This document shows positions 3,451 through 60,464 of a stretch of 64,000 nt of DNA, piece after piece (position 1 is the first letter of the stretch; the number at the start of each line of letters is the position of its first letter). Made by a program: the position numbers and the translations under genes. The stretch comes from Bacteroidota bacterium (lineage in GTDB: Bacteria; Bacteroidota; Bacteroidia; B-17B0; Aurantibacillaceae): contig JAJNDK010000002.1 of the NCBI GenBank assembly GCA_021156365.1, forward strand, positions 62,001 through 126,000. The letters run 5' to 3'. The notes under the pieces are model-generated. The model worked only from the letters and a program-made list of their open reading frames with translations. It did no database searches and was not told where the DNA came from.

Positions 3451-3485
3451 AAAATCCGGGGTCATCAGGCTCCGGATTTTTTTTG
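3451..3485 (+). terminator. rho-independent terminator
   Basis: AAATCCGG (3452-3459) pairs with CCGGATTT (3472-3479) and is followed by a T run, just after the stop of the 3093-3431 gene. Confidence 0.75.
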
Positions 3486-3554
3486 TCATACCCGATGCAG
3501 GCATCTTCCAATGGAATTAAAGCCATATCCGATCTTATTTTAAGGAGTACGGAC

Positions 3555-3968
3555 CGGATCTATACCCGTTGAGCTCCATCACTTAAGAGGTATACATTAT
3601 TTTTATACCCGTTAAGAAGCATGCATTAAGCTATATGAAACGGATCTATACCCGTTGAGTTCCATCACTTAAGAGGTATACATTGTTTTTATACCCGTTA
3701 AGAAGCATGCATTAAGCTATATGAAACGGATCTACACCCGTTGAGTACCATTACTTAAGAGGTATACATTGTTTTTATACCCGTTAAGAAGCATGCATTA
3801 AGCTATATGAAACGGATCTATACCCGTTGAGTGCCATCACTTAAGAGGTATATATTGCTTTTATACCCGTTAAGAAGCATGCATTAAACTACATGAACCG
3901 GATTTATTTCCGTTGAGTAATTACCACTTAAGAGGTATAAATTGAACCTATACCCGTCAACAAGGGAT
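3555..3968. repeat. 86-bp intergenic tandem repeat with 43-bp half-units
   Basis: CGGATCTATACCCGTTGA recurs with small changes at 3555, 3641, 3727, 3813 and 3899, exactly 86 bp apart. Inside each unit TATACCCGTT occurs twice, 43 bp apart, once followed by GAG and once by AAG, so the 86-bp unit is itself a diverged dimer. Copies stay AT-rich and contain GCATGC, GTATAC and CTTAAG palindromes. Degenerate pieces, including an inverted TATAAACGGG, continue to about 4090. No credible gene lies in 3486-4160. Confidence 0.9.
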
Positions 3969-4162
3969 TTGCGGGGGTACAAAGCGAAAATATACCTGTT
4001 ACAATGAAAATGTGCAGAGTATAAATTTGAGCTGCATTCTTTAAAAACCGATGTGTACTTAATTTAATTGCCGGCGGATAGGTATAAACGGGAAACACTC
4101 CCCACCGAAGAGACATATATAACTCACAAAGACCTAATACATTATTCTGATTTCCTCAATTA

Positions 4163-35132: not shown

Positions 35133-35148
35133 TGTGATCCCGCTGGGA
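35133..35148. other. attL core
   Basis: TGTGATCCCGCTGGGA, identical to the tRNA-Lys 3' end at 60390-60405; the flanking bases differ. Confidence 0.88.
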
Positions 35149-39054: not shown

Positions 39055-39527
39055 ATTATAGTTCCTCCTAAATATTTTTCAATTAATATTTCTGAATTTT
39101 CATCGTAAGTACAAACTTTTGTTCCCATTGGTTCGAAGCCATACACCTCGGTATAATGCTTTTTTAAAACTGTTTTGGGTGTAAGCGATACAAAACCACC
39201 ATAACCATTTAAAGAAGCCAAACGACAGGCGAAAGCAATTAAACAGCCCGCTATGCCTTCGTAGTTTTTTTGAGGACCAACGTTGTCTTTTGACGCTTCC
39301 AAGGCATTAATATCAATTCTTATTTCCTGCGGTATATCTTCGATTGCCATTAAGCCCAGAATCTCGCCGGTAACCTCCAATTGAAGTTTGTAAACTTCTT
39401 TTTTACTTTCGGCTTCCCAATTGAATTCGAAACGTCCACTTTTGTCAACCATTTTGAGATCAGCTGGTGAGGCTGGAAGTATCGTAGCTTTTTCTTGGTT
39501 TTTGGTATGCCTATTAGTTAAATACAC
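39051..39527 (-). CDS. GNAT-like putative toxin
   Basis: 158 residues from GTG at 39527 (ATG alternative at 39452). The C-terminal half resembles a GNAT acetyltransferase core: EGIAGCLIAFACRLASLNGYGGFVSL, then KKHYTEVYGFEPMGTKV. Paired with an HTH gene, it fits GNAT-type toxins that acetylate charged tRNA or other targets, but the classical acetyl-CoA loop is not obvious. Function is inferred from the context. Confidence 0.5.
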   Translation of the reverse strand: MYLTNRHTKNQEKATILPASPADLKMVDKSGRFEFNWEAESKKEVYKLQLEVTGEILGLMAIEDIPQEIRIDINALEASKDNVGPQKNYEGIAGCLIAFACRLASLNGYGGFVSLTPKTVLKKHYTEVYGFEPMGTKVCTYDENSEILIEKYLGGTII

Positions 39528-39596
39528 TATAACAAATATAGCGAAATATTCTTTACGAAAATCATCAATTTTGTTTATTTTTTATAAAATAACATT

Positions 39597-39779
39597 TTAC
39601 AGCTGATATTTAATAGTCAGCATTTGAGTTTTCAGCTTTTGTTCGGGAGTTCTTGTAGTTTGATGGGCTTTAATGAAAGCCCTTACATTGGCTAACTCCT
39701 GCTTGCTCCATTCTTTTGGGCGGATTTTAAACTCAAAATCGGAATCGTTTTTGCTTTTATTTTGTGTTCTTTTTGCCAT
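39597..39779 (-). pseudogene. truncated antitoxin-like fragment
   Basis: 60 residues; the end FIKAHQTTRTPEQKLKTQML and TIKYQL matches the pre-HTH segment of the antitoxin at 38539-39054 (RT..QKL...L.LKYKL) and stops just where the HTH part would begin. Probably the remnant of a second antitoxin, upstream of the toxin gene. Confidence 0.5.
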
Positions 39780-40640
39780 ACTTAAAGATAAGAAATTATA
39801 CGAATTTGGAATTCATTGGTGGGTAAAATAGGGCTCAAAAATGAGTTGATTTTAAGCTACTGGATTGAGGGAGCAAGTGAAGGAGCTATTGAAGGAGCAA
39901 AGTCAAAAAATGGCTCTCAAAACTCTCAGCAGTGCTGAGAGAAATGTTACTTCAGCAAGCCTAAAAAGGCAATGCTGAAAGCTGGCGGAGGCCGGAATAA
40001 TGAACCCAAACGAAGCAGCCACAGGGAAGACGATAGACCTGGAAACTGGATGAGGGAGCCCAAACGAAGGACGAGGGCCGCAAAAAGCGCTGAAACGCGC
40101 GCAATGGCAGCGGAACGGGCTGCAAACCAAGTGGAGAAAAAGGGCAAGCACCTGAGGGGCTGGCGGACGGAGAAGAGGGATGTTTTTGCATAGCTATAAA
40201 TTTTATGTGCTTCTCCTCAGCAGGCAGGGATGCAGGATGCAAGGCTTTTGGGAAAAATACTACCCTGAAAGGGTGGAGATTTTTTTCAAAACCGGAGGGC
40301 CTGGCCTTGTCAGCTGGCGTACCAGCCTGCTATCTTTGCAGATAAAATTTATTAGCGCAGAAACAGCTTTGCAGATTGGCTAACACAGCTATTGGGCCTG
40401 CTTCTTGTGCAACACTTGCCCTCGATTTTTATAGATAGATATTCGGCCGTGCGCCGGCTGGTGCGTATCTATCTATAAAAATGAGGAGCCAACCGTAGGG
40501 CGGCAGGGCGCGGAAGCCTGTGCGACTGAGTGGCGCGCATGGGAAATGTAACGCAATGCGGATGAAAGGAAGCCTTGTTGCTTAGTAGACGCATATCGTC
40601 AGTTTGTGCGGCCTCCTCAATTTGTGAACTTTTTTTGGTT
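39780..40640. other. palindrome-rich spacer without a clear gene
   Basis: An 860-bp GC-richer stretch. It includes CTCTCAGCA-G-TGCTGAGAG (39923-39941), TTCAGCA...TGCTGAA with an inner GCCT/AGGC stem (39951-39979) and the large hairpin at 40426-40481. Open frames here are short and overlap in several frames. Confidence 0.6.
40426..40481. repeat. large perfect hairpin
   Basis: TTTTTATAGATAGATA (40426-40441) and TATCTATCTATAAAAA (40466-40481) are perfect 16-bp inverted copies around a 24-nt GC-rich loop that itself has GGCCG/CCGGC complementarity. Confidence 0.85.
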
Positions 40641-40643
40641 TGA

Positions 40644-42794
40644 CTATTGTACTAAACTCAGGGATCCCCAATAATAAATAAGACTCAAGTCAATATCTTG
40701 TCTATTTTCTAATCTATCTATCACTTCTACATTTGTTGACACCTTTTTAATGAAAGAAATTATACTTTCCTTTCCCTTTAAAAATTCCAGAACCGTTCTT
40801 TTATACGCTTCAACGTATGAATCAGTTTCTGTTAAGTAATAAGCCAATATAATCCCATAGGTCATGCCTGCTAAATCGTCGATCGGCCATTGATGACTTA
40901 TCAAACTTTGATTTCTATTCACCATACTAGCACCTAATCCAATTGCCACTGGTGAACTGGTTAATGATGTGGTAGCACCATCACAGGCGTTTAAAACTAA
41001 AAGACGTCTATTATTTGACTTAAGGTCAGTTATTAACTCTCCATATGAGATAACGTTGGTATCATTAGTGGCCTCTTCCCGGTTGAGAACGAGAAAAGAA
41101 TTTTCAGGATAATAATGGTCAAATTCCCCATGACACGAAATCCAAACAATGTCATACTTGTCCTGCTGATATTCCGCAATAAATTCTGCTTTAGTTGCAT
41201 TGTGCCAATTAAATCTCGTTACGGTAACCCCTCTTTTCTCAAATATTTCTTGAACAACATCGCATTCTAATTCGCTAAGCATGCAGTCGCCTTGCCATAC
41301 AAGAACTCTTGTGACAGACGTTTCTTTTAAAGGATCCATAAAAGAAAGTGTTATGGGCAAAGCGATGGCTTGGTATTTAACAATTAACGCCTGTAGGGGA
41401 AATTGAAGGGCGCTGTAAAAATAAAAAGCATCTACACCAGAAAAGGTCGCACATTTGTTGATTTCAAAAATCTTAACTAGCAAAGCCTCAAGTTCGTTAC
41501 TAATTTTATAATTGGGAAAACCATAATCTTTATCAGGTTTAATTATACTAATGCTTAAGTCATCGTTTATTGCATGGGTCAATCTTAGAAATTTATTAAG
41601 AACTTCATTTAACGTAGGAAAATAAATGGTTGAATCATTTCCAAGTGTTGTTACTCTATTTTGTGCGGAATATAAAACTCCTTGTACAGAGTTAGGCACA
41701 ATCGCCAAATTTGTTGGCTTTATTAAGTCGGACGTGGGTATTCGAAAGTAATGGCCGATTAGGGCATTTACTCTTGTTAAGTCACCATTGAAAAGAAAAC
41801 GTACGATTGTTAAATCTAATATCGAAAAGATTCGAGATAACTCATATTTTAGTTCGTGGAAATTAAGATTCAAAGCTTCCAGGTCATGATGATAAGAACT
41901 AATTGCAAGCAGCAATTTGTCAAAGTTCACACATAGTAACTCGTAATTATTTTCGTATTTATTAATTAATAATTGCATTTTGTAATGGCCTCTTAACTTC
42001 GAGCCAAATTTATTCTGAACCACGTTACACCAATCCTGCCGCGATAATGGCGTGTCTTCAAATCCCATACACGAAAACTGAAATGCAATCAAAAAAGAAA
42101 TGTTTTCCGGAAGGTTTGGCAATGAATAGTAGTAATAAAGAATTTCCGAACTAAGCGTTGCCAAATGTTCTAATTTATTTTTTTTAGCAAATGATTGAAA
42201 TTCCATGAATGAGCCAACAAGATCTTGATATATAACTGTCCCATTGACGTCAGAAATCATGGGCTCAAGGTAGTTCTCAATATGAAATACGACTATCGCT
42301 TTGTGGCCGCCCGTTATACGACAATAGTAAAAAAGAAGTTTAGACCATCGATAGAAAATAGGCTTAAAATATTTGCAGACGAATGAATTGTCGCTTATTA
42401 CGAATTGATCAATTCTCCAGATTTCATACTCTCTTTCCGGAACTGACAATATTAAATTGGAAAGTGAATTTGCAATCCAGTCGAATTGAAGGTTGCTAAG
42501 CTTTTTAATATAAAGAATTTGAATAATGCTTGTACAGATTTGAAATTGTAAAAACAACAATACATCCATATATGCCGGCAATAGACCCCTAAGATCTATT
42601 AAGTCATTACAGAAAGATTTTGCAATAGCTAACTCCATTTCGGTATCGCTATTTGCTGCATCCACACTCTGGTCATATAACCCAAGTAGGCCTTCTATCG
42701 ATAGAACATCATCAAAAATAATTTCCTGACCCCATAAAGGATTGTGATTGCTGGCGATGGCAAAAAAATGTGGAAAAGCTGCTTGGGTAGTCAT
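40644..42794 (-). CDS. CHAT-domain caspase-like protease
   Basis: 716 residues from the ATG at 42794 (a TTG at 42812 adds six). About 430 residues of helical, repeat-like sequence precede a C-terminal CHAT domain. The catalytic His lies in WISCHGEFDHYY (about residue 555) and the Cys in LVLNACDGATTS (about 604), so the dyad is intact; SHQWPIDDLAGM follows as usual. CHAT proteases act as effectors in several immune systems. It stands alone between spacers, so it may be a single-gene defence protein. Confidence 0.85.
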   Translation of the reverse strand: MTTQAAFPHFFAIASNHNPLWGQEIIFDDVLSIEGLLGLYDQSVDAANSDTEMELAIAKSFCNDLIDLRGLLPAYMDVLLFLQFQICTSIIQILYIKKLSNLQFDWIANSLSNLILSVPEREYEIWRIDQFVISDNSFVCKYFKPIFYRWSKLLFYYCRITGGHKAIVVFHIENYLEPMISDVNGTVIYQDLVGSFMEFQSFAKKNKLEHLATLSSEILYYYYSLPNLPENISFLIAFQFSCMGFEDTPLSRQDWCNVVQNKFGSKLRGHYKMQLLINKYENNYELLCVNFDKLLLAISSYHHDLEALNLNFHELKYELSRIFSILDLTIVRFLFNGDLTRVNALIGHYFRIPTSDLIKPTNLAIVPNSVQGVLYSAQNRVTTLGNDSTIYFPTLNEVLNKFLRLTHAINDDLSISIIKPDKDYGFPNYKISNELEALLVKIFEINKCATFSGVDAFYFYSALQFPLQALIVKYQAIALPITLSFMDPLKETSVTRVLVWQGDCMLSELECDVVQEIFEKRGVTVTRFNWHNATKAEFIAEYQQDKYDIVWISCHGEFDHYYPENSFLVLNREEATNDTNVISYGELITDLKSNNRRLLVLNACDGATTSLTSSPVAIGLGASMVNRNQSLISHQWPIDDLAGMTYGIILAYYLTETDSYVEAYKRTVLEFLKGKESIISFIKKVSTNVEVIDRLENRQDIDLSLIYYWGSLSLVQ

Positions 42795-43446
42795 TCTCCT
42801 AACAAGATACAAAAATAATGGTAAAAGCGCCTGCGGCCAGCGTCAGCGAGTGGCTGCAAAAAGCGCAATGAAATGGAGCGGTTTGCGGACACTGTGCGGC
42901 GAGCCACCTGCGAGTGGAGCGAGGGTGGGAAGCCCGGGAGGCCTGACCTTTTCGGGCAGGACGGGGGCGACCTATGTTGAGTGCAGCAATAACAAAAAAT
43001 TGTTTCCGCTATTTATGCTGCACTAACAACACAAACATAAAGTAGATGCAACCGAGCTTTCATTTCATAAGTTGCATCACTTTATGTGCAGCCTGAGTGA
43101 CCCGCAGGCGAGCCATACTAAGGGCAGCCGGCGGCCTGAAAAGCGACTGGAATGAAATGAAGTGGCTTGAAAGGCCGAGGAGGCTGCCGCGGCGAAAGCT
43201 CGTGCAATTTGCAAAAGGCATGACAAACTTTTAACCCGAAGGGCAAAATAGCTTTAGCGAAATGCCTTAAAAAAACAGCACTGAAGCTAAGGCTATTTTG
43301 GTTTGGTGTGATCTTTTGCATTGCGCAAGCTAAGACGCACCGATTTACCTGGGTTGGAAGCGGGATCTTCTTGATCGAAGCCGTGAACTTCTATTGGAAC
43401 CGAAAATACGCAAAAAAGAAGCCGCACGCCTGTGGCCGCGCCTATG

Positions 43447-43580
43447 TTTGAGCGGAGCGAGCGGCGCAAAAGATTGCAAGGTTTGCTGCAAATCCTTCTT
43501 TGCGGCAAATCTTGCAGCCCTGAATTTTAAGGCAAAGCGAATAAAAACCGGGGCTGGCTATGCGCGATGTAGTTTTTATT
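43447..43580 (+). repeat. direct repeat, copy 1 (3' side of Gabija)
   Basis: Similar to 47639-47756 in the same orientation: GGCGCAAAA.ATTGCAAG, then a hairpin, then TGAATTTTAAGG and GAATAAAAACCGG...GTAGTTTTTAT. The hairpin centre reads AATCCTTCTTTG here. Confidence 0.8.
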
Positions 43581-43635
43581 GGCTTTGCCTTGCGTTAGGG
43601 ATTGCCGACATGTTGTTTATTGTTGTTTAATGGAG

Positions 43636-43731
43636 CCGTCGAATGCTTCGCATTTGTGGTGGAAGTCCCGGAGCTTTTCCTTCAGGGCCTGAGGACTTGA
43701 AATGAACAGTCCCTTTCGGTAGACTCGACGG
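43636..43731. ncRNA. possible structured RNA next to gajB
   Basis: CCGTCG/CGACGG (43636-43641, 43726-43731) encloses AATGC-TTC-GCATT and AAGTCC/GGACTT (43663-43668, 43693-43698), a branched fold of about 95 nt ending 8 bp from the gajB stop. RNA status is not proven. Confidence 0.3.
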
Positions 43732-43738
43732 AAACATT

Positions 43739-45469
43739 TTACTCGAGTACTATATTAAATCCTAAGGTTCCAAGTTTCGTAGTTGAAGCAGCTGATAAAC
43801 TAGGAACATTTATATAAAGATTTTCTCTTGCTCTACTTACTCCAACGTATCTTATTCTGTGCTCTTCATTATTTTGTAGATCAGGAGCGATCAAAAATCC
43901 CAAATCATCCTTCTCGTCAAATGTGCCAGCCCGATTCTTTTTATCAAGGATTAACAATACATTTTCAAACTCAGCACCTTTTGCCTTATGAATTGTTCTA
44001 TGATGACTTGTGTCGTCTTTTAGGTTCACACAAATTGCTAATTGTTCGTAGGTATTACTTTCGTAAAATGTTTTAATCGCTCCAGCTCGAAAATTAGAAA
44101 GGGTATTAGGATATATAGAATCTATTACTGATTTGTAGGCAAGTAGAGTCCCGTTTTTATATGTCCCATACTTAGACAAAAGATTTTTAAGGATTTTTAA
44201 TGCGATTTTTTGTATATCGTCTCTTTGCCCTTCTAGCTTCTTAAGTTCTTTTGAAATTTCTTTTAAGGCATCTTTATACCGATGTTGCTTTGCATACTCT
44301 GTAGCTTTGATACAGGCAATAATTGTATGCATCCTTGAAGGATTACTATCTGTTTCTCTTAGCTCTTCAATTAACTTTCTATGAGTAGCAATAAAATTTG
44401 ATCTGTCCCGCATAATATTGGAAGTTATATTATCTCTTGTTAGTGAGTGAATATCTCCAATTGCTAACTCTTCTGCTTTTGCCAATGCCCACATCTTTGT
44501 TCCAACCAATGCTGTAATTGGATTTCCTTCAACGTTTCTTTTGCCGTTTTGGGTGATGTCAGTACGAATTGAATTTAGAAGTGTAGTAATCATATTTGTA
44601 CACCTGTGATTATCTGCAATAGAATAGTGTATAATCTCCGATAAAGTAAAATCACGAAATTGGCTTGGATCAGCTCCTTGAAACTGGTAAATAGATTGAG
44701 CGATATCTCCTATAACTCCCACTTTAGTTTCTATTTCGGCTATCTTCTTTACGATAACAGTTTGAATGGGATTAGTGTCCTGAAACTCATCAATAAATAC
44801 ATACGGGAATTTGGCTCGCAATACACTCAACACTCTTGGATTTAAGGATATTAAAATATGACTGAAAAACAAAATGTCTTCGTGATCTAAAATTCCTTTT
44901 CTCCAATACATTTTTTTATACTCAATGTATGAATCATTTTTAATAGAGTAATTCCCTATCCTACCAGTATAAGGCTTTTTCGTCTTCAGAATCAGATTGC
45001 CAGTGTTGTTAAATTGCCAAGCAAGATCCTTAAAGGCTTCGATAATTTTTGCATCATCTGAAATATATGTTTGCCCTGTAGCTGTTTTCCATTCAAATAG
45101 CCATCCTTTGTATATAGGCATTTCATCGTGGCCGTCTACACGATTTATATCAAGTTCATATGATGCTGGGATTAAGAACAGAAAAGGTTTAATGACATTC
45201 TTATAAAGAAAACTGTGGAAGGTTGATACTTCGACACGATCACTATTATTTCCTAGTCTTTCTAAAACTGTTTCAGCTGCAACATTTGTATAAGTAATAC
45301 AAGCTACTTTTCTGTTATTGCCTAATCTGTCTGAATTATTAAGAACGTTCTTAATATGGTTAATAAGCCAACGCGTTTTACCTGCGCCTGGCCCTGCCGA
45401 CACTTTAAAGTGAGTTTCAAAATTGGTAATCTTATCGTCTGCAGTAATATTTATCATTGGAATAGGCAT
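43739..45469 (-). CDS. gajB: GajB, UvrD-like helicase of Gabija
   Basis: 576 residues of superfamily 1 helicase type: Walker A GPGAGKT (about 26-32), Walker B FIDEFQDTNPIQ, motif GDIAQSIYQFQGA, then HRTIHKAKGAEFENV and YVGVSRAREN. In Gabija, GajB senses DNA ends or nucleotide state and helps the GajA nuclease. It overlaps gajA by 16 bp downstream, the standard pair. Somewhat longer than the B. cereus protein (494 aa). Confidence 0.88.
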   Translation of the reverse strand: MPIPMINITADDKITNFETHFKVSAGPGAGKTRWLINHIKNVLNNSDRLGNNRKVACITYTNVAAETVLERLGNNSDRVEVSTFHSFLYKNVIKPFLFLIPASYELDINRVDGHDEMPIYKGWLFEWKTATGQTYISDDAKIIEAFKDLAWQFNNTGNLILKTKKPYTGRIGNYSIKNDSYIEYKKMYWRKGILDHEDILFFSHILISLNPRVLSVLRAKFPYVFIDEFQDTNPIQTVIVKKIAEIETKVGVIGDIAQSIYQFQGADPSQFRDFTLSEIIHYSIADNHRCTNMITTLLNSIRTDITQNGKRNVEGNPITALVGTKMWALAKAEELAIGDIHSLTRDNITSNIMRDRSNFIATHRKLIEELRETDSNPSRMHTIIACIKATEYAKQHRYKDALKEISKELKKLEGQRDDIQKIALKILKNLLSKYGTYKNGTLLAYKSVIDSIYPNTLSNFRAGAIKTFYESNTYEQLAICVNLKDDTSHHRTIHKAKGAEFENVLLILDKKNRAGTFDEKDDLGFLIAPDLQNNEEHRIRYVGVSRARENLYINVPSLSAASTTKLGTLGFNIVLE

Positions 45470-47505
45470 TCTATCGCATCTTTTAAATATTGGGGAACTA
45501 CGAATGTTGGTGTAGCACTATTAAGATCTTCTTCCAGTTTTACTGATAACTCCAATGCATTTTCCCCTTTTCCGACAGAATTAAGGTATCGGCTGGCTAT
45601 AATCGCTTTCTTCTTATCAATTTCATCCCAAGTGCAACTGTTTGAATTAATAGAGGTCGTTATGCGTGTGTTTTCATCGCTCTCGCGAAGAATAAATTCA
45701 CTTATGGCTTTTTCATCTGAAAAAGCTTTCATAAGTTCTTTGAGTTCATCCTGATTAGCGATAGAGTCCGTAAGTATCAATTCTAATGAAGGGTTACATA
45801 ACGCTATATTATATTCTAAGGTTTTCCCTTTTGGATCTTGGCTAAAAAAAGTAATATTTGGATGACTAGAATATTGGGTAATTTTTGCTGAAGCGTTATC
45901 CTGATATGTGTAAATTGTTGCATCCGTATTGTACTCGAATGGATAACATTTATTGAAAGAGTTGTTTGTTCCGGCAATTTGCTTTCTTACAGGATCCCGA
46001 TCAGTTATACAAACTACTTGTTTACCAATAGTGTTTGGCTTTGTGCTATCAAACAATTTCAAAAAATGTTCGAAATATCTACCCCCAATATTTGTGACTT
46101 CTATATGATGATCTTCTAATTGCTTATCCTTATTAACATGTCGGGCTATTGTGGGTAATAAAATTTGTTCTGCCAGTCCTTCTACCAATATTATTTTTTG
46201 AGCGAAGAGCATATTAGATTTTGTTGCATCTAAAAACCTTTCAATGTAAGCTTTTGAAACTTTATCTTCCTGACTATCGCTAAACACCTTTCCTGGATAT
46301 GCTACATTTAACACCCCTCCTTGACTATGTAAACAGATTATTTCGTCCAAAGAAACGGCAGAAGTAATATGGGTAGAATGGGAGGTTACGAAAATCTGCC
46401 GTACTTTACTTTTTTTATTCTCTTTCAAGAATTTCAAAAACTTGTATTGCATTGATGGATGCAAATGAGCTTCAGGTTCTTCAATAGCTAATAAAGGATA
46501 AACTTTTGCGTTACTACCATAATAGGAACCATCAGCATTAGCCTGCATTTTTGCAAGCAATAATGACATGTAAATTAAGTTATTGTATCCTAAACCATTA
46601 TGTGTGGCAGGTATTTTAATCCCCGTTTCGTGTTGAATTATTAATTTTAATGCGGACAATAATTCAAATTCTGTTATTCCTCCTTCAAATCCAGGACTTG
46701 CTTTATTAAATGCAGCGCCCGTTTTAGTTGCGTAATCTAAAATTTCTTTTTGTCCTTCGCTTATCCGTGCTAATAAATCGTCAATTACGGGCTTCGATTT
46801 CTGTTCAAATTCTTGTTGTCTTTGTTTTATTTCCGCTGTCTGGACACCGATCGTTTTTGTGGTATCTTTCTTTATTTCGTAATCCATGAAAAATTGAAGA
46901 ACATCTTTTAAAAGCGTGGTACGGCCTGTAAACATATCTCTTTCTACATCTCTAATGGCATTTAGAAATTGAAAATCGAACTTTTGTAAATTATCACTTT
47001 CAGCTTGATTTTGAAGGGCGGGATTTCCGCCAAAAATCTTGTAATTGTATTTTCGAACAAAATCTCTTTTTATTATGCGCCAAGCTACATCTATATCAGT
47101 AATTGTTTCCAGTGCTTTTGCATACTCTTCTTTTTTATCTTCTCCAAGAAAGAAACTATATGTTAATTGCGCTTCGTATGGGCTATCCAATCGAGTTATC
47201 CAATTCGAAACGGTTACTAAATCGTCGGTATGCAAATTTTCATCTTTACTTTCATTAATAATCAAAACAATTCTAATTTCTGGTGGATTAACCTTTAGGT
47301 GCGCTATATCAACTTGCTTATTAAAATCATCTACTTCTAATTTCTTGGAGGCTCCCGAGTTATCCAATATTAGGGAAAGTGCTTTTAACAAATTTGTTTT
47401 TCCTGCATTATTATGCCCTATAATTACGTTGATACCGTCATTAAACGAGATTTCATTGTCTTTAAAGTTCCGAAATCCCTGGATTTTTATCTTGGAGATA
47501 TACAT
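45454..47505 (-). CDS. gajA: GajA, OLD-type ATPase-TOPRIM nuclease of Gabija
   Basis: 683 residues. An SMC/ABC-like ATPase has Walker A GHNNAGKT (30-37) and Walker B LLAIEEPEAHLHPSMQ with the switch His in VTSHSTH. The TOPRIM domain (about 440-560) has the Glu in ILVEGLAEQILLP and the DxD in CITDRDP. GajA forms tetramers that nick phage DNA when nucleotide pools drop. Together with the overlapping UvrD gene this is a class 2 OLD system, i.e. Gabija. AT-rich compared with the host genes. Confidence 0.88.
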   Translation of the reverse strand: MYISKIKIQGFRNFKDNEISFNDGINVIIGHNNAGKTNLLKALSLILDNSGASKKLEVDDFNKQVDIAHLKVNPPEIRIVLIINESKDENLHTDDLVTVSNWITRLDSPYEAQLTYSFFLGEDKKEEYAKALETITDIDVAWRIIKRDFVRKYNYKIFGGNPALQNQAESDNLQKFDFQFLNAIRDVERDMFTGRTTLLKDVLQFFMDYEIKKDTTKTIGVQTAEIKQRQQEFEQKSKPVIDDLLARISEGQKEILDYATKTGAAFNKASPGFEGGITEFELLSALKLIIQHETGIKIPATHNGLGYNNLIYMSLLLAKMQANADGSYYGSNAKVYPLLAIEEPEAHLHPSMQYKFLKFLKENKKSKVRQIFVTSHSTHITSAVSLDEIICLHSQGGVLNVAYPGKVFSDSQEDKVSKAYIERFLDATKSNMLFAQKIILVEGLAEQILLPTIARHVNKDKQLEDHHIEVTNIGGRYFEHFLKLFDSTKPNTIGKQVVCITDRDPVRKQIAGTNNSFNKCYPFEYNTDATIYTYQDNASAKITQYSSHPNITFFSQDPKGKTLEYNIALCNPSLELILTDSIANQDELKELMKAFSDEKAISEFILRESDENTRITTSINSNSCTWDEIDKKKAIIASRYLNSVGKGENALELSVKLEEDLNSATPTFVVPQYLKDAIECLFQ

Positions 47506-47584
47506 ATCAATGTTTTAAAAGGGTGAATAACATATCAAATTTATCAAAAAACGTTTCATTATACTGGTTTTATGCAAAATGAGT

Positions 47585-47612
47585 AAAAAAGGGCGGTAAA
47601 CCGTCCTTTTTT
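47585..47612. terminator. bidirectional terminator between defence modules
   Basis: AAAAAAGGGCGG and CCGTCCTTTTTT pair around TAAA (one wobble). It ends the NTase-STAND operon before gajA. Confidence 0.8.
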
Positions 47613-47638
47613 GGTAGAATGTATAGCGTATATTAGTG

Positions 47639-47756
47639 TTTGAATCGATCGAATGGCGCAAAAAATTGCAAGATTTGCTGCAAAGAAGGATTTGCTTCAA
47701 ATCTTGCAACTATGAATTTTAAGGAAATCGAATAAAAACCGGTGTAGTTTTTATAG
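47639..47756 (+). repeat. direct repeat, copy 2 (5' side of Gabija)
   Basis: Aligns with 43447-43580, but the hairpin centre is the reverse complement (CAAAGAAGGATT). It runs into the last codons of the STAND gene. Confidence 0.8.
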
Positions 47757-50700
47757 TTTAAGTGAACCTAAATGCTGATTAATGTATTTGTCCACAAGTA
47801 ATAAATTTAGTATTCCGACATTTACAGAACAAATCTCCAAGCGTTTAACCCAACTACTAATTATATCGGCATTAAGTTCCGCTTCATACTCTACCTCATC
47901 CCCTTTTTCCGTTGGAAAAATATTATCTCTAATGCCAATTAGTGCCTGGCAATAGGCTCTTTCATATTCATCTGTTTCTAGTTTTGCTTCATCGTATGGA
48001 AATTCGTTTAGTAAGAACGCCAAAAAGTCTAATACGAACTGAAACGACTGCTGCATATCATCAGACGTACTCAAAAGTTGCGATTTAAGAATGCTCAAAC
48101 CAATTTCATCTAACTCCGAATCAAGAAAATATCTCAAGTCATTTTGATGTTGTACCAGCATTACTACTTTAGTAAATTCTTCCGTTAGATTTCTTAATTG
48201 CAATAATTTGGGTATTTCGGATTCCCAGGAAGATAACTTGAGATTAGCCTTGATTTCTGCGTCAATAGGACTTTGCACCCAATTATGAAATGCTAACTGT
48301 TCAAATTCTATGTCACGTATGGAATATAGCGGAAATTTAAGCCAGTGGTTGTTTACTGTATTTCCCTTAACCAAAGAAATAATATAAAAAACAGGAAAAT
48401 TGGTTTGTAACATTAGCTGCTTTAGGCTTGTATGTTCTGGCAGACCTACAGCGTCTTTTAAAATTGAAAACAAAGCCCCTACACTACTTAAAAATAAAGT
48501 GTAATTTTCTACAGCTACAGTGAAAACTGCCTTATTGTTGGTGGATTTGCTCCTGAGATATTTTATCTGATATTCTGTTGTTTTAGGAATCGCCTTACAT
48601 TTCTTTGATATTCGGGCTTCAAAATCCGACATGAGTTGGTTTATCAATTGTACACCTGATTTATCAGGTTTTGCGCCTGGGGAGCTAAGAAACTGCTTCA
48701 ATATTACTGACGTAGTAAGCAAATTGTCTTTTGTAATTGTTATATCCTTATTTGAGATGTATTTCCCGAAATTAGATTTTTTCTGGTCGATATAGGATTG
48801 GATATCTTCAATAGCCGAGAAAATATTTACCTGTGACATCCTTTCATTGTTAGAGTCGGGAGCGGCTGCATTGTCCTGTTTAGCTTTAATCCTCTCATAA
48901 ATAGTAGTACCAGATTGTCGTATAAAATTCTCAAGGGGTGTCCTGAAATCCCTATATGCTTTAAAAAACGGCTCGTATTTAGAAAATAGCCTTGCTCCTT
49001 TTTGGTCTAATTTTTCTCGATCCTTGATTTTCTTAAGACTTCTTGTCTGTATGCCAAATGGATCTGAAATTGATTGAGGTTCCTTCATAGACGTTCTGGA
49101 AATATGCTCTGCATTGCGGACAAGTTTATTTAATGGTGTAAGATCACTTGGTGATCGCAAAAACGAGGAAAGAGATGAATTGAAATCGATTATAATTTTA
49201 TTACATGAAGCTTCCCAAGAGTGTAATTGATCATAAAACTCAAGCCAAGTCGTAGGCCTTTTTTTATAAAGGTATAAGTTTCCGGTAATCACATTTAAAT
49301 CCACCCATTCATCTAAAGGTAATCTATCAACACTTATGCTTTTGTGCGCTTCATCATAGGGCAAACCCAATAAAGCTAATCGATGGCCATGGCCTTGGGC
49401 ATTGTATTTTTTCTTATCCGGATATGCATACCTTAATAAGTCGATAATCTCCATAATTTCGTCATTAGGGGACACTCCATCTGGTTTGTGAAGAATATCG
49501 ACAATATAATTTATAGTGGCCTCACTATCATCTATTCTTAACTCCGGTATCTTATATGATTTTCTTAATCTGTTTATGAAATAATCGGAAAACTTTTTGT
49601 GGATGGCATTAGTTTGACTACTATAATGGTATAATCCGAACATCAATTTTGACAAGCGATATAAATCTATGGATTGAAAAGCTGCTTCGAAATCATATCC
49701 GAGAAAATCTATTTCCCCTGCTGTATTTGGCATATTCCTAAACCAAAACATCATTTCCCCCAACGACTCCCACCCCAATTCTGAACTAGGGGGTGTTTTT
49801 GGCAATGATGCATTATTCAGGAAACTAATTGCATATTTATAGCAATTCGTCTTTGGTTGAATTTTAGCATTAACATCCTGGGCGAGCTGATTAAATTCTC
49901 CAGGAATCAATCGGTGAATCTCGCTCAAGTTAAGAGAGTTGCCGTGATATATATCAATTGCTATGGACCAACTATCACCGGCCCAACTATAACAATCGTC
50001 TAAAACCTCCATATTTTCCTCAATGTAGTCCCTGATCCCGACCCATAAGAGGCTTTTAAAGATTGATCTGTACGAGCTCCAATTAGGAATAGAATATTCC
50101 CTCAATGCCATTAGAAGGTCAGCAGGCTCGATAATTTTATGTAAAAAGCAATATAAAAGGAAATAATAAATGTCACCATCGTCTATTAAGGAGATGCTTT
50201 TTATCACGTAGTCCTTTTTGCAAACTAAAAATTCATCGAACAAAATTTCAGATATAATTGCTGATCGGACAGGGTGCAAACCGACTACATATTTTTTTTC
50301 ACTAACTTGCTTAATCAGATACTCTTTTTCAAATCTCTCGATTGCAGATAGCGCGTTGACATTCTGTTTTAGTTTAAAAGCATCGACTTTACTTCCATAG
50401 AAATCTGCAAGACTTACAATGCGTAGTATTTCGATTTGCTCCTGACTTATTGAAGAATCGTTTTTAATTTGGCCTATCTGCTGGTTTAACTTGTCCCTTA
50501 GCGGTTGCCCCTGGGTTATAGTGTACACGAATTCAAGTAAGGGGCCACGTTCCCCAAACTGGATCCAAGCTTCCTGAAAATCGGTGTACCCAATTATTTC
50601 GTTTTTACTGTTTAGAGAATTGTATATTTCTTTAGCTTCATTTTTCTCTAATGTTAATTCAAGATCCTTATATAAAAAATTTAACCCATTAAGTATAGCT

Positions 50701-51797
50701 GCGCGCCAGTCTTCGTGTCGTATTGTTACTAAAAACCGGACGAGCTCAGTGTCGGCAAACTCACGTACAATATTAATCCATTCTGTAGAATTTGGTAAGA
50801 CATTAATCAGGAACAGGACTGGGGAGTTCAAGCCTTTTGTTATACCTAAGATTGCCTGAATTGATTGTATAGAAATTAATGGTTCGTTAGGGATACGCAA
50901 CTCATAAATCAGGATTGATGGCTGATTATCGCGTATATATCTATATGCTAAGGTGGATTTTCCTTGTCCCGATGCGCCTTGAATAATAACAACGTTTGAT
51001 TGAGTGAAAAAATCCTTAATGTCTTTAAGCTGATCGATCCGTGGAATGTCGATGTCGTTTAGAATATGTTCATACCTGGCACTTACGCCGTAGTAGAATT
51101 CATTTTTAAGGATATTAATATCAAAATCTTCGGCATCGACCTGATGCAATGGTTTTATTACAGAATTATATAATTGCGTAATTGCACCTCGTTCGGATAA
51201 ATAGCTATCCATTGCTTCAATTTTTATAAATACGTCTTTCTGAGAAATAAGCCTCTGTTTTTCGGCTATGTTTGATATCCAAAAAAGAACGTAGTCAGCA
51301 GTAATGAACGGATCCATGGTCGAATATTTCTGTTTTAGCAGGGCTAAAATTTTCTTGCAGATATCGTCCTCATTCACTTCAATAAATTCAATGGAATTTT
51401 TAAGCGCTTGCCAGTCTTTTTCTGCTACAGAAAACTTCTGAAGATCTTTTTTTTCTTTTTGGGATGTTCCCTGGCTTTTATATAAGTTTTTTAGTTCTGT
51501 TGAGATAGATCCAAAAGAAACCAGAGACGGTATAACATTTGGATTTGTACTCTGAATTTTAATTGCACGCTTAAAGAAGGAAGTACCTTCTTTGGTAATT
51601 AAATCTGATTGAATAACTGGTGAAGACAAATTCTTCACTTGTATAATTTGTAACAGGTTGTCGTTTTCATCCAAAATGTCTAAATCTTCCTCCCCCTCTA
51701 ATCGGAATTTTTGCCTTTCAGAACTGCTAGATAGGATATGATAAAGCGAATACAAGAACTGCGTTCTGTATCCTTTCAGTGCTGCAATTGCTGACAT
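47751..51797 (-). CDS. DUF4297/Cap4-like nuclease fused to STAND NTPase (Avs-like)
   Basis: 1348 residues. The N-terminal part resembles the DUF4297/Cap4 dsDNA nuclease: GYRTQFLYSLYH, acidic GEEDLDILD (about 35-43) and QVK (53-55), a restriction-type E/D-QxK site. A P-loop NTPase follows (Walker A GASGQGKS at 274-281). The remaining 900 residues are helical and repeat-like, as in the sensor part of Avs/STAND proteins. It is 13 bp after a CD-NTase gene on the same strand. Nuclease activity and sensor role are inferred from family knowledge. Confidence 0.75.
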   Translation of the reverse strand: MSAIAALKGYRTQFLYSLYHILSSSSERQKFRLEGEEDLDILDENDNLLQIIQVKNLSSPVIQSDLITKEGTSFFKRAIKIQSTNPNVIPSLVSFGSISTELKNLYKSQGTSQKEKKDLQKFSVAEKDWQALKNSIEFIEVNEDDICKKILALLKQKYSTMDPFITADYVLFWISNIAEKQRLISQKDVFIKIEAMDSYLSERGAITQLYNSVIKPLHQVDAEDFDINILKNEFYYGVSARYEHILNDIDIPRIDQLKDIKDFFTQSNVVIIQGASGQGKSTLAYRYIRDNQPSILIYELRIPNEPLISIQSIQAILGITKGLNSPVLFLINVLPNSTEWINIVREFADTELVRFLVTIRHEDWRAAILNGLNFLYKDLELTLEKNEAKEIYNSLNSKNEIIGYTDFQEAWIQFGERGPLLEFVYTITQGQPLRDKLNQQIGQIKNDSSISQEQIEILRIVSLADFYGSKVDAFKLKQNVNALSAIERFEKEYLIKQVSEKKYVVGLHPVRSAIISEILFDEFLVCKKDYVIKSISLIDDGDIYYFLLYCFLHKIIEPADLLMALREYSIPNWSSYRSIFKSLLWVGIRDYIEENMEVLDDCYSWAGDSWSIAIDIYHGNSLNLSEIHRLIPGEFNQLAQDVNAKIQPKTNCYKYAISFLNNASLPKTPPSSELGWESLGEMMFWFRNMPNTAGEIDFLGYDFEAAFQSIDLYRLSKLMFGLYHYSSQTNAIHKKFSDYFINRLRKSYKIPELRIDDSEATINYIVDILHKPDGVSPNDEIMEIIDLLRYAYPDKKKYNAQGHGHRLALLGLPYDEAHKSISVDRLPLDEWVDLNVITGNLYLYKKRPTTWLEFYDQLHSWEASCNKIIIDFNSSLSSFLRSPSDLTPLNKLVRNAEHISRTSMKEPQSISDPFGIQTRSLKKIKDREKLDQKGARLFSKYEPFFKAYRDFRTPLENFIRQSGTTIYERIKAKQDNAAAPDSNNERMSQVNIFSAIEDIQSYIDQKKSNFGKYISNKDITITKDNLLTTSVILKQFLSSPGAKPDKSGVQLINQLMSDFEARISKKCKAIPKTTEYQIKYLRSKSTNNKAVFTVAVENYTLFLSSVGALFSILKDAVGLPEHTSLKQLMLQTNFPVFYIISLVKGNTVNNHWLKFPLYSIRDIEFEQLAFHNWVQSPIDAEIKANLKLSSWESEIPKLLQLRNLTEEFTKVVMLVQHQNDLRYFLDSELDEIGLSILKSQLLSTSDDMQQSFQFVLDFLAFLLNEFPYDEAKLETDEYERAYCQALIGIRDNIFPTEKGDEVEYEAELNADIISSWVKRLEICSVNVGILNLLLVDKYINQHLGSLKL

Positions 51798-51810: not shown

Positions 51811-52614
51811 TTATGATATGGGTAAAATTTTACGTAAGTATTTTCTTGCATTTGCTCTGCTTTCTTCTTTCAAGGCTTTGTACAAGTTTTTAGCATTTTC
51901 CTTTAGTGCTTCCACCTTCTCTCCTGTTTTCTCATAATTCCAATCGTCGGGCAAATGATCTATTGCATAGAAAAAACCACTTTCAATATTATCGCCGGAA
52001 AAATTCATATCAGCAACAATCTGTTCAAGATAATAAGAAGCGATAGGATAGTTAACTTTTGCATTCCAAGCTTTTAGAAGCCGAATAATGCGTCTTACAT
52101 TGTAGTTGTATTTTTTGTTTTTTATTTCGAGTTTTTCTGAAAATCCGTGAATATTAGTATTTCTCCATTCTGTATCATTTTTTGGGATATAGATTTCATT
52201 TGAAGTAAAAATCCAACCTTCTTCCCTGACATACGCAGGAACTAAGTCGTAGTTAATATGGTGTAGCTCTAATACTACCGAAGGCTTTGATTTGTATGAA
52301 ATTGAATTGGGATAGTATTGTTCTGCAAAATTGTGAAGGTGTTTTCTATACGTAGAAGGGTTTACATTGATGTTATCATGATCGAAAACGATCAAAAGAT
52401 CAATATCTGAACGGGGATCGTAATTACGTGGTAAGATTGTTTTACGTTTATAGGAGCCAAAAACTTCGATCGCAATTATTCTATTTCCGAATTCCAGAAC
52501 AAGTTTCTTTTTTATGTTACTTAATGAAGCTTCTATTTTAGGCCTTTCGGAACTATTCTTGCTGATATAAAACTCTTGCGCGTAATCTTTTAGATTCTGT
52601 TCAATTGTTAACAT
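51811..52614 (-). CDS. CD-NTase-like nucleotidyltransferase 1
   Basis: 267 residues of the SMODS/CD-NTase type: EVFGSYKRKTILPRNY with the GS motif, SDIDLLIVF with two Asp, and the third Asp in HINYDLVPA. An alpha-helical C-terminal half follows (RRIIRLLKAWNAK). Such enzymes make cyclic oligonucleotide signals in CBASS. The gene lies 12 bp after the four-TM gene and 13 bp before the STAND gene. It is clearly paralogous to the protein at 53569-54375. Confidence 0.85.
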   Translation of the reverse strand: MLTIEQNLKDYAQEFYISKNSSERPKIEASLSNIKKKLVLEFGNRIIAIEVFGSYKRKTILPRNYDPRSDIDLLIVFDHDNINVNPSTYRKHLHNFAEQYYPNSISYKSKPSVVLELHHINYDLVPAYVREEGWIFTSNEIYIPKNDTEWRNTNIHGFSEKLEIKNKKYNYNVRRIIRLLKAWNAKVNYPIASYYLEQIVADMNFSGDNIESGFFYAIDHLPDDWNYEKTGEKVEALKENAKNLYKALKEESRANARKYLRKILPIS

Positions 52615-52626: not shown

Positions 52627-53412
52627 CTAAATTTTATAACCCTGTTTCATATTCTCCCATTTCGCTGACAATGCAGGATTGAGTTCATCAAAAATATTAG
52701 TGTCAGTTAAAATAGTTCCCCAGGCTATTGTGGCTTCATAGTTCAGTACATTTTTGACCATCTCTCCTTCTGACTTAGATTTATCTGTTTCGTTTTCTAA
52801 CCGATTAAAGAGCGTCTTAAACTCCTCATGGATAGTCCCGATCCGGTTCGCAAATTGTTGTAGTCTTATTGCTTGTAGAACAAGTACGCCTGTAGCTGTA
52901 ACTTGCAAAAGATCGTTCACAAGATCCTTATTGCCGATGCAAGCCGAAACAATGAATAGAATAAAAATTACAGAGGTTATGATCCATTTTCTAAGTATCA
53001 TTTTCTTAGCAACCGTGCATGTGAACAAAGAATTTTCAAAACCTAACACAGCCAATTTATATACTCCTGGGCTTATTCCTCCCGGATTGAAATACCCGGT
53101 TGATCTTTCACCTGAAAAGTTTGTATCGAAAGCGTGATCAATAAGGTCCGTTCTTTTTTCTCTGCCTCCCACATAAAATCGGGTATTTATTAGTACGTCC
53201 AACACAATAAAAGCCACCGAGAAAAGGGTTGCTGTCGCGTTTGCCCAGGTAAGAAACCCAGGATGAGACTTTATGTATGTATTAGCTGCAAAGGCATTAA
53301 GTGCGAGCGACGCAATAGTTGATATAGTAGATAATATTAATACCCGAGTTTGCCATTTTTCCAATGTCCTTGCTTGATCTAAGATAGTTTGGTGGGGGAC
53401 GTTTCTTGTCAT
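52627..53412 (-). CDS. four-TM protein, candidate pore-forming effector (S-4TM-like)
   Basis: 261 residues from the ATG at 53412 (a TTG at 53436 is less likely). Four hydrophobic segments: LILSTISTIASLALNAFAA, TATLFSVAFIVLDVLI, ITSVIFILFIVSACIG and a weaker fourth, LLQVTATGVLVLQAI. A conserved-looking soluble loop between the second and third has LIDHAFDTNFSGERSTGYFN. S-4TM proteins accompany CD-NTases and are thought to permeabilise the inner membrane. The family assignment rests on topology and context more than on sequence. Confidence 0.6.
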   Translation of the reverse strand: MTRNVPHQTILDQARTLEKWQTRVLILSTISTIASLALNAFAANTYIKSHPGFLTWANATATLFSVAFIVLDVLINTRFYVGGREKRTDLIDHAFDTNFSGERSTGYFNPGGISPGVYKLAVLGFENSLFTCTVAKKMILRKWIITSVIFILFIVSACIGNKDLVNDLLQVTATGVLVLQAIRLQQFANRIGTIHEEFKTLFNRLENETDKSKSEGEMVKNVLNYEATIAWGTILTDTNIFDELNPALSAKWENMKQGYKI

Positions 53413-53568
53413 TTTGCGTATGATTTTGGTTATCAATAAGTAACAACTATCGCTCCAATTGATCCCAAAGAAGCATTGTCACCTTTTTAGCGTTAAAAAC
53501 TGTTAATTTGGCAGGTTTTACTATTTGGGGCAATGTTTGTATTCCATAAGTAACTTAAAAACAGTTGG

Positions 53569-54375
53569 ATGGAAAACAAAGATCAAATTGAATATCTAAA
53601 TCAGCTTGCTGCGAAATTGAAATTGGGGGTAACCGAAAAAGAAAGTATAGGAAATTCCGTAAAAAATATAAAAGACAAACTGGAATCATTCTTTGCAGAT
53701 GATGGTCTCAAAGAAGTTATCCCATTTGGTTCATATGACAGAGATACTTTACTCACCCGAAAAATTGATGAAGAATCGGATGTAGATATTCTTATTGTTT
53801 TTGATGAAAAAAGGTGGGAATCACAAACCTATCTAAATAAGCTAAAAAGATTTGCAGAAGAAAATTATCCAAGGTCTGAAAATTACCAGGATCATCCAAC
53901 CATCGCCATAGAATTGGTAAAAATTAAATTTGAACTCGTTCCTTGTATATATAAAGAAGGCAATTCTTGGGATAGCGGAAAGTATCTTATACCAAAAAAA
54001 GAAAATGCCGAACTGGAGTGGATAGAAACGAATCCTAATTCGTTGAAGAATGAAATTAATGAATACAAAAAAACGAAACCCGTACTGATGGATTTAATCC
54101 ATTTGTACAAATACTGGAATATAGATAATGGCCGCCTCTATTCTACATTCACTGTTGAAACGTTCTTGTTGAAGCACTTTGATTATGAAAGAGATCTATA
54201 CTACAACTTCTACAATATAATTGGCGAATTACATTTTACGAATCCGAAAAAAGAGCAAAATGAGTTAAGTGAAAAAACAAAGCAGTATAAAACTAATATA
54301 GATTTATTAATAGCCAAAGGCATGCGCGATTATGCGTTAACTGAGCTTCAGAAAATATTACCTGACATTAATTAA
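53569..54375 (+). CDS. CD-NTase-like nucleotidyltransferase 2
   Basis: 268 residues, divergent from the four-TM gene. PFGSYDRDTLLTRK, then ESDVDILIVFDEK gives the GS and DxD motifs; the third acidic residue is Glu (KIKFELVPC) where paralogue 1 has Asp. The two align along most of their length (RFAEENYPRSENY, KYLIPKK, LQKILPDIN), but this copy is diverged. The altered third metal ligand may lower or change activity. Confidence 0.82.
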   Translation: MENKDQIEYLNQLAAKLKLGVTEKESIGNSVKNIKDKLESFFADDGLKEVIPFGSYDRDTLLTRKIDEESDVDILIVFDEKRWESQTYLNKLKRFAEENYPRSENYQDHPTIAIELVKIKFELVPCIYKEGNSWDSGKYLIPKKENAELEWIETNPNSLKNEINEYKKTKPVLMDLIHLYKYWNIDNGRLYSTFTVETFLLKHFDYERDLYYNFYNIIGELHFTNPKKEQNELSEKTKQYKTNIDLLIAKGMRDYALTELQKILPDIN

Positions 54376-55298: not shown

Positions 55299-56819
55299 AT
55301 GGAATATGAGCTGCATTTATTTGAAGCCCTTGTGAATGGCCCGATGCCTTCCATTTTACCGATCGAAGAAGGTACAAGCTACCGAAGTGTTTTGAACAAG
55401 AAACACGGGAGCTGTGAACATGTTACGGTGGCGACCTTCGGCCGAAGCGGTCGCAAATTTGTATTAAAGGAAAAAAGTATAATTAATTCGTTAAATCCCT
55501 CTTATGAAGATATAAGCAGTCAAACCAACTTGTTTGAGAATGTTCCTGCGGATCATTTAGCGCGGGAGGTACTGGCTCTTCTGCATATAGACAAGAGCAA
55601 TGTAAAAAGTGTAGAGGTTGAGAACAAGCAGGGTAAATCCATTGTCAGAATAAGACAGAAAATTCAGTGTGAAAGTCTGCCTGAAGTAGAGGCGCGGTAT
55701 TATTATTACTGCGACGTGATGCGGAATGAAATACTACGTATTAAAAGACACATACAGACCGCTGTATTTGAGTTCAGGACTCCAAAAGAAATAGAATTGT
55801 ACGTACACAATATGCAGCAATCTCTGATTAGTCTTTGTTTCAGGGCTCTTCGGCAATTGTTACCAGGGGACCAAAGCACTATTTATAAAACGTCAACGGA
55901 ATTTACAGATACGGATATTCTGAAAAGCTGCTTTATTTCTCTTGAACGGATATTGCGATTCCTGGAGAAGCATTATCTGAAGTATGTTGATGAGAATATA
56001 CAGATCCCTTTCCGCTCTTCGCTGATAAAAACTTACCGGATAGCCGAGAAGCTGGAGTTGGTAAAATCAGCTTTGCTGAGCTGTGGGATCGATCTGGCCT
56101 TGCTCCGGATCATTTATGTACCGCTGCTTAAACTTAATTCTATTTCGCTGAAGGATCGCATTACTTATCATGAACTCATTTATGCCAATACTTACCTGGA
56201 TGCTTTTTATCATGAAATAAAAGGGAGCGGATCGGGTCTCGGGCTCAAACAAATAACGGATGTTCTTTACCTGATAAATTACAATTCTCTGGATTTGCAA
56301 TTATACGAGGTTGCTGCAATAAAGAGTTCTTTGGATGCCGTTTCAGGAGTAACTGAGAAAATTGATTATTTGTATCACCGGTTGAAATTGATTAATCAAC
56401 GCAGCTGCAGGATAAACATAAAATTTGATCCTGGCTTGCCCTCCTTAAAAGAGCAGCTGAGCACCTGGATAGAGGAAGAAATCACTTACCTGAACAAACA
56501 TTTATTACTGGAGGCGAAACAGGCGCCGATTAACTTGTTTACGGAAACGGAGAAGCCAAAGCTTCAATCTGTTTATACGGTGGCGCAACTGGCGTTATTT
56601 TATCGCCTGCAAGCTGATGCGGGGATCATTACGAATAAACTACAAACGGATATTTTTAAACACATTGCGGATAACTACAAAACGTCGCGAACAATGGACA
56701 TTTCGCCAGACAGCGTTAAAAACAGGTTCTACAACATCGATCATACGGCCATAGAGGCGGTAAAGGAAAAAACCATTGAACTGCTTAACCAATTGCAGAT
56801 CGTGCAGCCAGACGTTTAA
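55299..56819 (+). CDS. RteC-like/unknown element protein
   Basis: 506 residues, mainly helical and soluble. The C-terminal 120 residues (VAQLALFYRLQADAGIITNK, then HIADNYKTSRTMDISPDSVKNRFYN) have the look of the RteC family and related proteins of Bacteroidota mobile elements; the N-terminal 250 residues are not recognised. The start at 55299 gives MEYELHLFEALVNGPMPSI. A regulator of excision is possible. Confidence 0.55.
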   Translation: MEYELHLFEALVNGPMPSILPIEEGTSYRSVLNKKHGSCEHVTVATFGRSGRKFVLKEKSIINSLNPSYEDISSQTNLFENVPADHLAREVLALLHIDKSNVKSVEVENKQGKSIVRIRQKIQCESLPEVEARYYYYCDVMRNEILRIKRHIQTAVFEFRTPKEIELYVHNMQQSLISLCFRALRQLLPGDQSTIYKTSTEFTDTDILKSCFISLERILRFLEKHYLKYVDENIQIPFRSSLIKTYRIAEKLELVKSALLSCGIDLALLRIIYVPLLKLNSISLKDRITYHELIYANTYLDAFYHEIKGSGSGLGLKQITDVLYLINYNSLDLQLYEVAAIKSSLDAVSGVTEKIDYLYHRLKLINQRSCRINIKFDPGLPSLKEQLSTWIEEEITYLNKHLLLEAKQAPINLFTETEKPKLQSVYTVAQLALFYRLQADAGIITNKLQTDIFKHIADNYKTSRTMDISPDSVKNRFYNIDHTAIEAVKEKTIELLNQLQIVQPDV

Positions 56820-56911: not shown

Positions 56912-56927
56912 AGGGTTGCGCAACCCT
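56912..56927. promoter_or_regulatory. palindrome upstream of HTH gene
   Basis: AGGGTTGCGCAACCCT is a perfect 16-bp palindrome about 60 bp before the excisionase-like gene. It is followed by GCAACCCTGAATTTTAA, which resembles part of the Gabija-flanking repeat. Confidence 0.5.
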
Positions 56928-56986
56928 AGCAACCCTGAATTTTAAAAGCCAATATAGTTCTTTGTGGAAACACAAAATAATCTACT

Positions 56987-60389: not shown

Positions 60390-60405
60390 TGTGATCCCGC
60401 TGGGA
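60390..60405. other. attR core
   Basis: TGTGATCCCGCTGGGA, identical to attL, made of the last 14 bases of the tRNA gene plus two. Confidence 0.88.
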
Positions 60406-60464
60406 TTCGAACCCAGGACCCCTACATTAAAAGTGTAATGCTCTACCAGCTGAGCTACGGAATC
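60392..60464 (-). tRNA. tRNA-Lys (TTT)
   Basis: 73 nt. Acceptor GATTCCG pairs with CGGGATC (one wobble), the D-arm is GCTC..GAGC, the anticodon loop is CTTTTAA (TTT) and the T-arm is CTGGG-TTCGAAT-CCCAG. CCA is not encoded. The 3' end is the integration site of the element. Confidence 0.95.

Follow-up and report, generated by a model that had tools for sequence, protein, structure and literature searches.

How are defense operons inserted into mobile islands, and how are they replaced there? The process is poorly understood, and the locus described here raises the question in concrete form, as a clean repeat pair lies at the edge of its cargo, and a sibling element has other genes next to a noncoding block that the two elements share. 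It lies in a stretch of 64,000 nucleotides from a Bacteroidota bacterium (GenBank assembly GCA_021156365.1, contig JAJNDK010000002.1, positions 62,001 to 126,000), hereafter the window, whose numbering is used throughout. An initial annotation of this DNA proposed that the repeats flanking a Gabija module could allow its loss or exchange by recombination, and that a hairpin center flipped between the two copies pointed to the processing of an extruded hairpin. Are these repeats sites at which Gabija moves, or boundaries of another kind?

Results

Gabija belongs to the cargo of an element integrated at tRNA-Lys

The region is cargo of an integrated element of 25.3 kb (25,273 bp) that ends at a tRNA-Lys gene (60391-60464, minus strand) and encodes a tyrosine integrase (58813-60075, minus strand). 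The att site at the 3' end of the tRNA gene (60390-60405) is matched at 16 of 16 nucleotides by a direct copy at the other element end (35133-35148), the two ends are alike at 70% over 81 bp, and the tyrosine integrase together with direct att copies at a tRNA 3' end marks a tRNA-integrated element. An excisionase-like protein, whose score falls short of the NCBIfam cut-off, is also encoded on the island, as is a DnaC-like helicase loader. With its integrase, excisionase-like and DnaC-like proteins, 16-bp att site and several defense systems, it resembles known tRNA-integrated defense islands, from which it differs in that no transfer genes were found among the island ORFs searched and in the conserved noncoding blocks that lie beside its cargo.

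The two Gabija genes are intact, lie between the repeats and overlap by 16 bp. The gajA gene (45454-47505, minus strand) encodes a 683-aa OLD-like ATPase with a TOPRIM domain (PADLOC GajA, E 2.3e-294), and the adjoining gajB (43739-45469, minus strand) a 576-aa UvrD-like helicase (PADLOC GajB, E 4.4e-212). This domain content is that of Gabija, and both genes match their models over nearly the whole length; the genes themselves are ordinary, the flanking repeats alone being unusual. Upstream of gajAB and on the same strand are a 4TM effector gene (52627-53436), a CBASS-type cyclase gene (51811-52614) and a gene for a 1348-aa protein (47751-51797) with weak matches to an nSTAND NTPase and a Cap4 nuclease, both below curated cut-offs. 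The cyclase and effector genes, by their shared direction and close spacing, probably form an operon, and the 1348-aa gene is the last of the operon that ends in the second repeat copy. Among 395 class genomes, one other has a relative of the 1348-aa protein, at 27% identity. A second CBASS-type cyclase gene (53569-54375, plus strand) has the same best PADLOC model as that at 51811-52614 and is opposed to it, with the effector gene between them. On the other side of Gabija, a CHAT-domain protein (PADLOC BovA; 40644-42812, minus strand) is cargo between two conserved noncoding blocks.

Among the 87 genomes of the family, GajA was found only in its own genome (E <=1e-60), and in 395 genomes of the phylum relatives occurred in 3 others (E <=1e-100). 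Viral contigs held none, and 2247 of 72,556 plasmid records did (E <=1e-5), the best from Persicobacter at 54% identity. Flanking direct repeats were examined at five loci with Gabija relatives (L025-L029): two (L026, L027) had none, two (L025, L029) had a single pair confined to one flank of Gabija, and the Persicobacter locus (L028) had dispersed repeats on both sides that are unrelated to the present ones. Two of these loci carry palindromes of their own. At L027, a near-perfect 50-nt palindrome (8007-8056) stands ~55 bp upstream of gajA, and this locus gave no blastn match to the copies at E <=0.05. At L028 (Persicobacter sp. JZB09), gajB is followed by a large imperfect palindrome (11915-12060), close behind which the next ORF begins, a layout that we take to resemble integron attC sites. 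The DNA folding of this palindrome is unexceptional (z -0.75 and -1.53), no second copy of it was found in the plasmid collection, and by blastn it is unrelated to the present repeats.

A single pair of diverged direct repeats brackets gajA-gajB

Copy 1 (43445-43580) lies 3' of gajB and ends 158 bp past its stop, and copy 2 (47637-47756) lies between the 1348-aa gene and gajA, its outer edge holding the stop codon of the former (47751-47753). Both copies have the same orientation, start 4192 bp apart, and each sits 3' of a minus-strand defense operon. Between 42500 and 48700, a repeat finder returned a single long direct pair (43445-43535 and 47637-47727, 78% over 91 nt). In a gapped alignment, 43445-43582 and 47637-47757 agree at 99 columns and differ at 22, with two gaps, one of 1 bp and one of 16 bp, the longer falling in the loop of the second hairpin; identity is thus 99 of 121 ungapped columns (82%), and the longest run common to the copies is 14 bp. 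When copy 2 was used as a blastn query against the 5.31-Mb genome, copy 1 was recovered at E 9.1e-21, and among the 22 places at E <=10 the best one beyond the copies and their own self-complementary hairpins had E 0.097. A covariance model built on both copies likewise found two loci only, the copies themselves, and by neither method was a third full copy found in the genome. The same-orientation repeats of 120 to 130 bp described in the initial annotation are therefore borne out, with a similarity of ~120 bp well beyond chance (99/121 identical, E 9e-21), and the full pair, which lies beside defense operons, occurs only here in the genome.

With copy 1 and its flanks as the query, the genome yielded one extra piece of 31 bp (94%, E 1.5e-5) alone on another contig (G000:C1:70669-70699; L015 1501-1531), in the spacer that precedes a presumably trmB-like gene. 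The 19-nt core of this piece, at up to one mismatch, occurred among 296 genomes only there and in copy 1. The repeat pair is real and local, its copies homologous and forming the sole full pair in the genome. The substitutions between them are biased, with G/C in copy 1 against A/T in copy 2 at 17 positions and the reverse at 3; this would be expected of old duplicates drifting in spacers of different composition (GC 0.50 for copy 1 and 0.31 for copy 2).

The hairpins are conserved and the loop of one is inverted

Each copy contains a hairpin, here called B, with 19-nt arms in copy 1 (43474-43517, loop TCCTTC at 43493-43498) and the loop GAAGGA in copy 2 (47666-47709, loop at 47685-47690). Copy 1 also holds most of an extended hairpin C (43529-43591), whose 20-nt arms are 95% complementary and separated by 23 nt, 16 bp of which are missing from copy 2. 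The arms of hairpin B match between the copies at 34 of 38 positions, in agreement with the conserved arms first noticed, and the linker between B and C is conserved to the same degree. The 6-nt loops agree at none of six positions in direct register and at all six after reverse complementing, for which base composition gives a chance of p ~2e-4. The reverse-complement center reported earlier was thus real; the 12-nt centers quoted were exact, though offset by two columns and including six arm bases, and the informative part is the 6-nt loop. Since the arms match nearly equally well both ways (34/38 direct, 33/38 inverted), a turn of the loop only and a turn of the whole hairpin cannot be told apart.

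Both copies fold better than shuffled sequences, copy 1 with z -4.11 on the plus and -4.09 on the minus strand, and copy 2 with -2.36 and -6.23, respectively. Read on the minus strand, copy 2 has T6 after its hairpin B. In copy 1 the T-tract is interrupted, and the hairpin, when folded in isolation, is weak (z -1.53). A further short hairpin with T-runs (47585-47612) lies beside a candidate gajA promoter (47587-47558, minus strand). A terminator scan listed neither hairpin B nor this short hairpin, the omission of the hairpins B probably being due to their internal stem mismatches. None of the 19 pairs had a compensatory change, with both sides altered, a count that comes from two sequences only. 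In Rfam (E <=1, 39500-48000), four matches were obtained, all under the gathering score and taken as chance; in another scan, the only family at gathering score was tRNA.

The full repeat was not found in the other genomes, plasmids, phages and viral contigs searched

Searches with copy 2 (E <=0.001, at most 8 candidates scored per genome) did not find the repeat in 99 other relatives, nor did the covariance model with strict filters in 394 other class genomes, partly overlapping the 99. The exact hairpin pattern occurred in 84,980 species in 3 stretches, all without the remainder of the repeat and judged to be chance matches; the DNA around them resembles, as we take it, ParA-type ATPase genes. 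There was no match in plasmids with both copies as queries, in phages with copy 1 and its flanks, or in viral contigs with exact patterns. A locus with a single full copy and no Gabija, the check suggested at the outset, was found neither in the 99 relatives or 394 class genomes nor, by exact pattern, in the 84,980 species, and could yet exist in unsampled strains, the genus being represented here by only two other genomes. Among literature titles and abstract openings, repeats of this kind around Gabija were not found described.

In a sibling element, the shared noncoding blocks adjoin other genes

A 506-aa island protein (55299-56819) has counterparts in five other genomes (87 searched, including its own), and related integrases adjoin tRNA-Lys in G115 and tRNA-Pro in G023. 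The G023 sibling element, at tRNA-Pro, has 85-bp att copies at 93%. It keeps a noncoding block (42820-43334) in five pieces at 73-78%, which ends 110 bp before copy 1, and a second block (39962-40642) in five pieces at 77-90%, ~230 bp in total. At the place of Gabija it has a 499-aa ORF, and DUF2441 and DUF1643 ORFs replace the CHAT gene; PADLOC gave no match for any of the three, and its 35 kb contain neither a GajA/GajB match nor a copy of the repeat. This one comparison shows that the gene set at a shared block can differ, here without the repeats. Neither block was seen in the stretches fetched from the other four siblings, two of which are short (13 and 16 kb).

These GC-rich noncoding blocks are thus conserved between elements that occupy different tRNA genes, and their neighboring genes are not the same (L058). 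A plasmid of Parabacteroides distasonis also has 74 bp of one block (83%), past its tra region (L064 8001-8074). A conserved 19-nt piece of a noncoding block was not found in viral contigs, nor was that block found in plasmids.

Copy 1 shares a stretch with a palindrome that precedes the excisionase-like gene

A palindrome with a direct half-site (GGGTTGC.GCAACCC..GCAACCC, 56913-56936) stands upstream of the excisionase-like gene, and the last 17 nt of the wider site (56913-56945, plus strand) match copy 1 at 16; GCARCCCTGAATTTTAA is common to both. The best local score of this site against copy 1 is 16, as against at most 14.5 in 2953 random windows of this sequence. When written with R codes, the motif has only two exact matches in 87 genomes, copy 1 and 56913-56945, each just 3' of a palindrome. 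The palindrome is kept in three of the five siblings (G032, G124 and, by eye, G115; loci L054, L056 and L060), upstream of the excisionase-like gene or of an ORF in its place. G036 (L055) has a variant, its half-site reading GTCACCC while the arrangement is kept, and in G023 no such palindrome was noticed. The changed half-site of G036 behaves as an operator coevolving with its protein would. Regarding the shared stretch, its TGAATTTTAA part follows the palindrome in none of the five siblings, and one-mismatch matches to the motif occurred in relatives at 10 places, compared with 6 for the reversed control. Two of them still appeared in a later blastn (L038, L043) and had no hairpin on inspection, the former lying in an open frame.

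Discussion

The loss or exchange of Gabija through recombination between the copies, as first proposed, is not supported, given the 14-bp longest run, the failure to find a single-copy locus in the genomes searched and the lack of attC boxes. Efficient RecA-dependent recombination needs ~20 to 30 bp of identity, and copies with 82% identity and no identical run above 14 bp, short of the long uninterrupted identity of a RecA substrate, would be poor substrates for homologous recombination. The repeats could nonetheless be the scar or substrate of an event by which Gabija entered at this spacer, through homologous exchange or the integration of a circular molecule by one crossover, and by which it may leave likewise. 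The direct orientation, the placement around gajAB, the position of copy 1 near the edge of a conserved backbone block and the different genes that the sibling has at that block all fit such an event, which we nevertheless regard as unlikely, given the shortness of the identical run, the absence of a single-copy locus from the 99 other relatives and 394 other class genomes, and a sibling that has other genes and no repeat. Gabija, as cargo of an integrase-bearing element, already has a mover. Still less probable is that the hairpins, related to the palindrome by the excisionase-like gene, are cis-acting sites of the mobile element, either bound by Xis or Rep or forming a small structured RNA. 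The 16 of 17 identical nucleotides, a local score above those of all 2953 random windows and the sole two exact motif matches, each just 3' of a palindrome, would be in line with this, but siblings keep the palindrome and not TGAATTTTAA, the one-mismatch matches look like chance when set against the reversed control, and besides tRNA no Rfam family reached its gathering score.

Strong hairpins in direct orientation with a flipped loop also recall structure-recognized sites, of the integron attC or IS200/IS605-REP kind, that would move Gabija as single-stranded DNA, and the genome has three Y1 transposase-like genes at other places. These genes are, however, on contigs C7 and C10, while the window is on C16, and just two full copies of the repeat are present. 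In attC sites, R boxes (RYYYAAC / GTTRRRY) frame the palindrome; here neither box occurs on either strand in 43401-43740 or 47506-47800, and the island integrase scores 36.2 on the integron-integrase model, whose cut-off is 265, and is by this score not of the integron type. The locus thus shares with an integron cassette a hairpin 3' of each operon, in direct orientation, and differs in both box and integrase. The attC identity was rejected for want of R boxes, and the REP/IS605 identity for the two full copies only and no Y1 transposase beside the hairpins, which leaves single-strand mobility a very slim prospect. We would give hardly more than conjectural weight to a bolder scheme, in which a hairpin bounds each defense operon of the element family on its 3' side, marking a slot for cargo and being recognized by a putative element-encoded enzyme, operons such as Gabija being added or replaced at the hairpins and the loop inversion being a trace of hairpin opening. 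As for chance or convergence between two ordinary terminators, which are palindromic and simple in sequence, it is barely credible, as the similarity extends over ~120 bp including unpaired flanks (E 9e-21) and is already refuted by this flanking homology.

Altogether, the best reading of the repeats would be a relic duplication of a hairpin that is a terminator-like operon boundary. We propose that the copies are diverged descendants of one intergenic hairpin spacer, forming the 3' boundary of the CBASS/nSTAND-like operon and of the gajAB operon, and that an old duplication gave rise to the pair as Gabija came to lie next to the first of these operons. The minus-strand hairpin with its T-tract, clear in copy 2 and interrupted in copy 1, would serve as a terminator or operon insulator, a role that we consider likely. 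Template switching from one hairpin arm to the other would have turned the loop, and Gabija would move with the whole island via the integrase and the tRNA-Lys att sites rather than via the repeats. This explanation is favored because there are exactly two full copies, both 3' of operons, and because of the folding, the 14-bp run, the base bias, the documented loop inversions, the element ends and integrase, and the sibling with different genes; taken whole, we give it about an even chance of being correct.

The flipped center had been read as a sign of extruded-hairpin processing, but it does not require an enzyme, template switching being able to invert loops, if rarely. A bacterial rRNA survey ascribes loop inversion to template switching between hairpin arms and describes it as rare, with complete inversions uncommon and most inverted loops of four nucleotides and partly self-complementary (PMC8794818). 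A similar mechanism is given for yeast coding hairpins with arms >9 bp (PMC8604942), and hairpin-associated inversions are reported from chloroplast spacers in PMC2903610, which cites Kelchner and Wendel 1996. As in the cases described there (PMC8604942, PMC8794818), the present inversion is exact, lies between near-perfect arms and keeps the loop length; it differs in being seen between paralogous copies, not strains.

Several observations weigh against the duplicated-boundary explanation. The terminator scan lists neither hairpin B, and in copy 1 the T-tract is interrupted and the isolated fold weak (z -1.53). The linker is as conserved as the arms, which a bare terminator would not explain, and copy 2 already has a neighboring hairpin with T-runs (47585-47612). 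Complete loop inversions are rare in the rRNA survey (PMC8794818), and ours is a single case. The pre-duplication state was seen in no relative, the explanation does not account for the 31-bp piece of copy 1 that recurs alone in the chromosome, and changes on both sides of a pair are lacking (0 of 19, two sequences only).

Even on this ordinary reading, the locus holds two cautions for the study of defense islands: hairpin repeats that flank a defense module need not be recombination sites, and replication alone can flip the center of a hairpin. Repeats of another kind occur outside the island, where positions 1-4000 of the window contain direct repeats with spacings mostly of 276 bp and also of 86 bp.
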